From Candidatus Gastranaerophilales bacterium (GTDB lineage Bacteria > Cyanobacteriota > Vampirovibrionia > Gastranaerophilales > Gastranaerophilaceae), in contig CALVAR010000025.1 of the NCBI GenBank assembly GCA_944325575.1, positions 1 through 33,582 of the forward strand: DNA of 33,582 nucleotides. The letters are read 5' to 3'. Position numbers and translations under genes: made by a program. The number at the start of each line of letters is the position of its first letter. Within the stretch, counting starts at the first letter, position 1. The notes beneath the pieces were generated by a model. The model was not told the DNA's origin. It worked only from the letters and a program-made list of their open reading frames with translations, and did no database searches. Below, in pieces: positions 11,570 to 33,523 of this stretch.

Positions 11570-12166
11570 ATGGAAAACTACAATGTATCATTTGGAGCAA
11601 GAAGAATAGGCACAGCAAATATTCGTGCAAAAATTAATAATAAGTGGAAAGATATCCCCGTAAGTTTTGTTAGACTTCACCCGAAAACAAACAAAGGGGA
11701 TAAAGCAGCTCTTGAATCCGTAACAAACTTATGGCAAGGGAAGAATTTGTCAGGTTCAATACAAGAACAATCAGAAATTTGTAATGATCCTGTTTTTGCA
11801 TTGACAACACAAAACGAAAATTTTAAAAGCATTAATCCCAAAAAAATACTAGGAATGCTTACGACAAATGATTTCAAAAGCAATGCGGAAGATACAGCAG
11901 AAATTTTCAGACTCGGTGTAAATCCGGAGTATGCGTATACTCAAAATAAAAACAAAAGAGACTTAAAACATATCGGAGCAGCTCTTATTAAAAAATTTGT
12001 GGATTTAGTTGATAAAAGAACAAATGTCAGAAGAGTTGTTGCAACAGCAGAAGAGCCATCTGAAGTTAAATTTCTAAAAAAAATGAATATGAATGAAAAA
12101 AATTCTAACTTCAAATATACAAACTTTGAAATAAACAAAGAAAATTTTGATGAATTTGTGAAATAA
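11570..12166 (+). CDS. GNAT-like protein with FGA-type leader, unknown substrate
   Basis: A 198-residue protein starting with YNVSFGARRIG, a leader style I associate with Gastranaerophilales small proteins. The C-terminal half reads like a GNAT acetyl-CoA site: a basic KRDLKHIGAALIKKFVDLVDKR segment where the HIGAAL turn would bind the pyrophosphate, then VRRVVATAEEPSEVKFLKKMNM. The N-terminal half (about 15-95) is not recognised. The start has GAAGGAAAAG nine bases upstream. It stands alone between the terminator at 11463 and the tRNA-derived repeat array that begins just after its stop codon. The acetyltransferase assignment is moderate. Confidence 0.6.
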   Translation: MENYNVSFGARRIGTANIRAKINNKWKDIPVSFVRLHPKTNKGDKAALESVTNLWQGKNLSGSIQEQSEICNDPVFALTTQNENFKSINPKKILGMLTTNDFKSNAEDTAEIFRLGVNPEYAYTQNKNKRDLKHIGAALIKKFVDLVDKRTNVRRVVATAEEPSEVKFLKKMNMNEKNSNFKYTNFEINKENFDEFVK

Positions 12167-12168
12167 AA

Positions 12169-12512
12169 AGCCGGTGACGGGGCCGAGCGGGCAAAAGCCT
12201 GCGTTTTAAAATTAGCCTGCGATTGGTCGCAGGTTCGCATAAAATTTGTTAAAAAAGCCGGTGACGGGGCCGAGCGGGCGAAAGCCTGCGTTTTAAAATT
12301 AGCCTGCGGGGTCGCAGGTTCGCATAAAATTTGTTAAAAAAGCCGGTGACGGGGCCGAGCGGGCGGAAGCCTGCGTTTTAAAATTAGCCTGCGATTGGTC
12401 GCAGGTTCGCATAAAATTTGTTAAAAAAGCCGGTGACGGGGCCGAGCGGGCGAAAGCCTGCGTTTTAAAATTAGCCTGCGGGGTCGCAGGTTCGCATAAA
12501 ATTTGTTAAAAA
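12169..12512. repeat. Four tandem tRNA-derived repeats in an alternating A-B-A-B pattern
   Basis: Copies start at 12169, 12256, 12341 and 12428, with periods of 87, 85 and 87 bp, and 85 bp to the intact tRNA-Thr at 12513. Each begins with AGCCGGTGACGGGG, the 3' end of tRNA-Thr as seen on the plus strand, then departs. It later carries GTCGCAGGTTCG, the T-arm in the opposite orientation. Type A copies (1, 3) have hairpin CCTGCGA-TTGG-TCGCAGG; type B copies (2, 4) have CCTGCG-GGGT-CGCAGG. So a two-unit block of about 172 bp was itself duplicated. Between copies is a shared ATAAAATTTGTTAAAAA linker. Confidence 0.9.
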
Positions 12513-12585
12513 AGCCGGTGACGGGGTTCGAACCTGCGACCTGATCATTACGAATGACCTGCTCTACCAGCTGAGCTACACCGGC
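12513..12585 (-). tRNA. tRNA-Thr(CGT)
   Basis: Read on the minus strand it begins GCCGGTGTAGCTCAGCTGG and ends CACCGGCT. The acceptor stem pairs GCCGGTG with CACCGGC. The anticodon stem is GGTCA/TGATC (one G-T pair) around TTCGTAA, so the anticodon is CGT (12550-12552) and reads ACG, threonine. The T-arm CGCAGGTTCGAACCCCG is complete. CCA is not encoded. It lies 5 bp from the GH32 gene stop, on the same strand, and directly abuts the repeat array. Confidence 0.95.
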
Positions 12586-12590
12586 TTTTA

Positions 12591-33484: not shown

Positions 33485-33523
33485 CTCTCATAAAAGCAAC
33501 ATTTAGTTGCTTTTATGAGAGGT
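33483..33523. other. 18-bp perfect hairpin
   Basis: Arms 33483-33500 and 33506-33523 (ACCTCTCATAAAAGCAAC and its reverse complement) enclose a 5-nt loop. It lies next to the diverged copy 3. Confidence 0.8.

Follow-up and report, generated by a model that had tools for sequence, protein, structure and literature searches.

What process builds a tandem array of partial tRNA copies beside an intact tRNA gene, and is the array peculiar to one locus? In the window, the whole stretch of 33,582 nucleotides analysed here, an intact tRNA-Thr(CGT) was found by ARAGORN and Rfam (RF00005, 61.2 bits) on the minus strand at 12512-12586, so the array beside it lies 3' of the gene. This tRNA is the source of the 3' end that is copied in all four units of the array.

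Layout and anatomy of the tRNA-Thr array

The initial annotation had described four units, alternately 87 and 85 bp long in the order A-B-A-B, beside the intact gene, and TRF, direct-repeat searches, ARAGORN and Rfam all agreed with this description. It had located the array correctly, with coordinates (12169-12512) that were off by one base relative to 12170-12513, an immaterial difference. All units were assigned to the minus strand. Sequence, TRF and direct repeats defined unit 1 (type A, 87 bp, 12170-12256), which is the most distant from tRNA-Thr, and unit 2 (type B, 85 bp, 12257-12341). Sequence comparison defined unit 3 (type A, 87 bp, 12342-12428) and unit 4 (type B, 85 bp, 12429-12513), the latter adjoining tRNA-Thr. 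The direct-repeat search gave start-to-start spacings of 87, 85, 87 and 85, and TRF reported an array at 12165-12526 with a period of 87 (4.2 copies, 95% matches) and also a period of 172 (2.1 copies, 98% matches). The second AB dimer was 99% identical to the first, which supports the earlier reading that a dimer had been duplicated. The two B units were identical; the two A units differed in the loop of hairpin H1, AAAA in unit 1 and GGAA in unit 3. A chance origin of the array is excluded.

Along the tRNA strand, the order within each unit is a T-rich stretch that resembles the native flank; the inverse of tRNA nt 46-58; hairpin H2 and, after an AT linker, hairpin H1; and lastly the tRNA 3'-end copy, which starts at nt 61. 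In each unit, tRNA 3' end and flank together make up 18 bp. In unit 1 the 3'-end copy CCCCGTCACCGGC, corresponding to tRNA nt 61-73, lies on the minus strand at 12170-12182, and it recurs in units 2-4. Inverted-repeat analysis showed that 13 nt of the variable region and T-arm recur as a perfect inverse, GGTCGCAGGTTCG, at 12225-12237 in unit 1 and at 12310-12322, 12397-12409 and 12482-12494 in units 2-4. Every unit thus carries the tRNA 3' end and an inverted T-arm, as had been claimed. H1 of unit 1 (12187-12202) reads GCGGGC-AAAA-GCCTGC and is followed by TTTTAAAATTA, as judged by sequence and folding. H2 of unit 1 (12216-12233; sequence, folding and terminator scoring) reads CCTGCGA-TTGG-TCGCAGG, and its type B counterpart in unit 2 (12303-12318) was identified by sequence. 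Both types have CCTGCG(A)-loop-(T)CGCAGG in common, with a TTGG loop on a 7-bp stem in A and a GGGT loop on a 6-bp stem in B. The difference between A and B is therefore the H2 loop and one stem pair, matching the earlier statement that unlike loops sit on a common hairpin stem. The H2 stem is built partly from the inverse copy of nt 46-58.

No unit contained a complete cloverleaf, and ARAGORN and Rfam gave one tRNA in the whole window. In the Rfam search of the window, tRNA alone reached its gathering score and the RtT model was unmatched; 20 unit- or core-bearing loci gave tRNA plus weak matches, all far under the family cut-offs. We rejected a CRISPR array, because whole units repeat, the inserts are nearly alike within the array, and there are no unique foreign spacers.

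The units might be selected functional RNA or DNA parts, acting as terminators, insulators or processing signals of the tRNA transcript. H2 with its T-containing tail TAATTTTAA scored as terminator-like on the tRNA strand (6 sites in the region versus 1.5 expected), and judging by sequence a terminator-like role of the tRNA-Thr array is possible as a by-product. Leader and terminator regions are copied in units, and the tRNA-Thr unit folds with moderate stability, as this reading would have it. However, the z-scores of the fold were only -0.7 to -2, and at many other tRNAs an ordinary terminator already stands between the gene and the unit.

Unit number at the orthologous locus in other species

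A GH32 gene lies directly upstream of tRNA-Thr(CGT) in 19/19 congeners where the tRNA was found, indicating that the locus is orthologous. Copies of the tRNA end downstream number four in the present genome (G000), two in G020 and one each in G010, G014, G006, G016 and G018; G001 has at least part of a downstream unit, where its contig ends. Upstream, there are four units in G015 and two each in G005, G009 and G020, and five more species have single or degenerate ones. Both flanks are bare in six species (G004, G008, G021, G022, G002 and G003). The range over the 19 species is 0, 1, 2 or 4 units downstream and likewise 0, 1, 2 or 4 upstream.

The initial annotation had proposed comparing copy number among close relatives, holding that constancy of number and sequence across a wide phylogenetic range would speak for a stable functional RNA. 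Unit number varies even between G000 and its nearest relatives G010, G014 and G006, which argues against such an RNA. With up to four copies at one orthologous locus and none in six species, we regard selected functional parts as a distinctly unlikely explanation of the array.

On a GH32 protein tree, downstream presence changed at least three times and upstream presence at least twice, the degenerate upstream cases being scored by eye. The copied 12-mer matched each species' own tRNA, with four variants overall, so the copies are young or are kept in step with the gene. The four-species clade around G000 has downstream units in common, and in places such as this the units may be old and inherited.

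Gene-end units on both sides of tRNA genes

The array is no isolated oddity. Most tRNA genes of this genome, and tmRNA as well, bear the same construction, which is present on both sides in mirrored form. We scored exact matches of at least 11 nt to a tRNA within its own 300-bp flanks, and swapped flanks served as the control. Such matches were found at 18 of 32 distinct tRNA genes in this genome (control, 1.8) and at 11 of 20 in a congener (control, 1.5). By the same test, three further genera within the family scored 7/13, 4/20 and 0/22 tRNAs, two further families within the order scored 9/16 and 1/20, and one more genome from the class scored 0/15. Own-tRNA flank matches are patchy among relatives; most of the genomes are MAGs, one genome per species, in which arrays may be collapsed, and several counts in this work come from samples selected for containing the hairpin core described below.

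A 5' unit comprises a copy of the tRNA from nt 1 to nt 11-20, an insert, direct or inverse pieces of the D-arm, and the native leader. A 3' unit comprises the terminator, inverse or direct pieces of the T-arm, an insert, and a copy of the tRNA 3' end. The two are mirror images: the copied 5' end of an upstream unit breaks off in the D-arm, and the copied 3' end of a downstream unit starts in the T-arm. Breakpoints were surveyed in the 281 tRNA loci gathered here, a biased sample, with a test that needs about 9-10 matching bases and misses shorter copies. Among 5'-end copies, 95 of 96 endpoint counts fell at tRNA nt 10-20, with peaks at 11-12 and 18-19; the starting points of 3'-end copies all lay between nt 56 and 66 and were most frequent at 56, 60 and 63. 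The anticodon arm provided a single count, at nt 27. A conserved leader motif close to GAMAATTNAATA was seen just upstream of many tRNA 5' ends (e.g. L125, L073 and L160) and is copied within 5' units; we take it to resemble the boxA antitermination site.

This geometry is what a replication accident alone could leave behind. A polymerase would stall at the first hairpin that it meets (the D-arm on a 5' approach and the T-arm on a 3' approach) and slip back into the flank, leaving tandem partial duplications and inverted arm pieces. The mirror symmetry, the breakpoints at the first arm reached from either side, the inverted copies of the local arm and the native flank sequence kept in the units all agree with it, and pure replication slippage is the strongest rival to the reading that we favour below.

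Integrative elements give rise to tRNA gene fragments, in which a partial tRNA copy lies by or near an intact tRNA gene, and tRNA genes are the classic integration targets that are left with such copies (PMC9897764). The units resemble these fragments in the partial copy near the intact gene and in the duplication of a tRNA end at the far boundary, and every 3' unit terminates in a displaced 3' end. They might be scars of tyrosine recombinases, produced as larger islands integrated one after another and were lost. However, the units are only about 80-160 bp (the tRNA-Thr units, at 85-87 bp, are too short to hold an integrase gene), contain no integrase gene, form tandem arrays and carry an inserted hairpin. 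In addition, 5'-end copies are at least as common as 3' ones, the flank within each unit is native to its locus, and the same hairpin core recurs at different tRNAs. We consider integration scars very unlikely.

In this draft assembly, 8 of the 37 tRNAs are no more than 500 bp away from a contig end, versus about 0.7 expected by simple arithmetic from 76 ends and 2.02 Mb. This excess suggests that the arrays break the assembly. It could also be held to point to an assembly artefact, but the structures recur, locus for locus, in many independent assemblies, and the breaking of contigs at arrays suggests real arrays whose copies are under-counted; we find an artefact hardly credible. The right end of contig C7 of this genome (L171) carries repeats of a tRNA-Arg(CCG) 3' array whose tRNA is at the start of contig C2 (L024), so these contigs probably join through the array.

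tmRNA and RNase P RNA genes

The tmRNA gene has an acceptor and a T-arm in common with tRNA. Units were present at its 3' end in 8 of 14 genomes, some with the inverse T-arm and the core, and copies of its 5' end were found in 3 of the 14. Convincing units at the RNase P RNA gene were found in none of 13 genomes; the few short matches look like terminator palindromes or chance, and non-specific targeting of structured RNA genes was rejected on this ground. Separately, the RNase P RNA matches span 497 nt in L362 (G093) and 423 nt in L363 (G138), compared with the usual length of about 350 nt, suggesting insertions within the gene.

A dispersed hairpin core in the inserts

Many inserts have in common a hairpin core of the form CTCTGCCGA-stem-GAGAGG. 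This genome contains 44 copies, and a reversed-pattern control gave 0. We surveyed 146 genomes of the order Gastranaerophilales at the family level: the core was present in 120 of 124 genomes of family f1, at up to 84 copies, in 4 of 7 genomes of f6 and f7, and in 0 of 15 genomes of f2-f5. Among the matches listed for contigs of species-level genomes, nearly all came from Gastranaerophilales or unnamed gut MAGs. Viral contigs contained no core, and carriage by phages was rejected accordingly.

Among the matches listed, 59 of 106 cores lay within 500 bp of a tRNA, compared with 12.5% of random positions in the same loci. The cores have a polarity: among the same matches, 46 of 47 on the 5' side were on the tRNA strand, and 8 of 12 on the 3' side were on the opposite strand. 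Many of the listed cores more than 500 bp from a tRNA lay at contig ends, and some cores without a nearby tRNA in this genome sit in longer nested repeats. The genome also holds many near-identical copies of non-coding, nested palindromic repeats, dispersed and about 200-400 bp long, in which the core is contained (L205-L224, e.g. L206 372-734 and L209 437-797).

The tRNA-Thr units have the architecture seen elsewhere but carry the H1 and H2 hairpins in place of the CTCTGCCGA core sequence, so that a grouping by architecture has to embrace several core families.

Across 144 distinct cores, stems varied freely with full compensation, forming 1237 Watson-Crick pairs, 23 G-T pairs and 14 A-C pairs. 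A tandem G-A/A-G mismatch at the base of the stem was constant, partly owing to the search pattern. Selection on RNA should tolerate G-U far more than A-C; since G-T barely exceeds A-C, the stems suggest structure at the DNA level or renewal. The covariation points to DNA- rather than RNA-level selection on the core, and RNA-level selection was rejected because the two mismatches are nearly equal. The scarcity of G-T pairs also weighs against selected functional parts.

The core is likewise the main difficulty for slippage: it belongs to one dispersed family with conserved ends that also occurs far from tRNAs, every long end duplication at the loci inspected has an insert, and restriction to a lineage is unexpected for a general replication error. 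We regard a replication accident alone as unlikely. On balance we lean towards a short, palindromic, non-coding mobile element that targets the ends of tRNA-like genes and is followed by tandem amplification.

RAYT transposases as candidate enzymes

RAYT genes were found in 40 of the 124 f1 genomes. The median core number was 10 in RAYT-positive and 4.5 in RAYT-negative genomes (p = 2e-4, kinship uncorrected), a weak correlation, and 21 RAYT-negative f1 genomes had at least 10 cores. The RAYT loci are edged by other REPs, such as GTAGGTTGGGCATACTTGCCCAAC (L171, L172, L173 and L174). The GTAG-type tetranucleotide is absent as a 5' foot of the core, whose constant feet are CTCTGCCGA and GAGAGG; GTAG sometimes occurs on the 3' side. 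RAYT/Y1 transposases were rejected as the cognate enzyme, because they are not required, are not flanked by the core, and their genes do not track the units; among the transposases tested (RAYT/Y1), no candidate fitted the core. Of the three RAYT genes of G000, two are about 1 kb or less from a tRNA gene.

A model for unit formation and its relation to known systems

Under the mobile-element explanation, a hairpin core would lodge in a tRNA or tmRNA gene, entering the D-arm when it comes from the 5' side and the T-arm when it comes from the 3' side. That event, or one closely linked to it, would duplicate the outer gene end with about 20-60 bp of native flank, so that an intact gene persists beside a truncated copy holding the core. 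The unit of gene end, native flank and hairpins would then amplify in tandem, here by doubling of an AB dimer to ABAB, and its copies would stay similar to the resident tRNA. The anatomy of the units, their mirror symmetry, breakpoints and polarity, the specificity to tRNA and tmRNA genes, the dispersed core family and the variation between species are observed; we infer that the core moves as DNA by means of a trans-acting enzyme and that insertion and duplication are coupled. One point against the model is the length of native flank in the duplication, which would be unusual in a target-site duplication. More tentatively, the units may represent a novel mobile DNA system of Gastranaerophilales, in which enzyme-inserted hairpins at the D- or T-arm of tRNA-like genes duplicate the outer end so that the essential gene survives each insertion, and in some genomes tandem arrays load the tmRNA gene and the majority of tRNA genes; this fuller proposal could well be wrong.

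We found no prior description of hairpin units at gene ends in the open-access papers searched. MITEs are short, non-coding elements with terminal inverted repeats that depend on a trans-acting transposase; the core here is a hairpin with conserved ends. RtT repeats of the E. coli tyrT operon are tandem units of about 178 bp downstream of a tRNA, each with the tRNA 3' end, at a single locus in enteric bacteria. They are not known to have a hairpin core family or 5' units, and the array here had no Rfam RtT match. REPs and REPINs with their RAYTs (PMC3116915) are also short, dispersed, non-autonomous palindromes that form tandem and nested clusters. The core resembles them as a short palindrome of many copies (44 against 0 in the reversed control) with stem covariation, but the RAYT genes here are bordered by REPs other than the core, and the units, with no cognate RAYT, strongly target tRNA and tmRNA genes and copy gene ends. 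Palindromes that spread through genomes, nested or tandem in places, also include the small dispersed repeats of Nostoc (PMC3116915) and the mitochondrial repetitive hairpin elements (PMC2800124). Unlike the units here, they are not tied to tRNA ends, and the accessible text of these sources describes no duplication of a target gene end (PMC3116915, PMC2800124). REPINs, island tRNA fragments, mitochondrial hairpins and RtT each show part of the pattern; none shows all of it.

If the mobile-element explanation is true, then in a common gut lineage a miniature, palindromic element that regenerates its target lands mainly at tRNA genes. We know of no REP, MITE or integrase system that inserts into essential, mostly single-copy genes and regenerates its target. 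The explanation would also account for the assembly breaks at tRNA genes in these genomes, and the many natural replicates and bare sister loci that it offers could be used to identify the enzyme and the insertion intermediate.

Repeats at the two ends of the window

TRF and sequence inspection identified a second array at 1-180 of the window (minus strand). It is of the 5' type and has two units 96 bp apart, in which the tRNA 5' end is copied as TGCCCCGGTAGCTCAGTTGG (145-164 and 49-68). This array is cut off by the contig end; a tRNA with the 5' end TGCCCCGGTAGCTCAGTTGG was not found in the assembly, and a search of the own genome gave no further copy.

Near the right contig end, a core-like palindrome, CCTCTCATAAAAGCAAC-ATTTA-GTTGCTTTTATGAGAGG, lies at 33485-33523 within a longer dispersed repeat, and the same flank is present in two repeats of this genome (L216 and L222). 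Both of its outer ends are of the GAGAGG type (CCTCTC...GAGAGG), and from its sequence the palindrome looks like two opposite cores joined through the stem, or like an assembly join.
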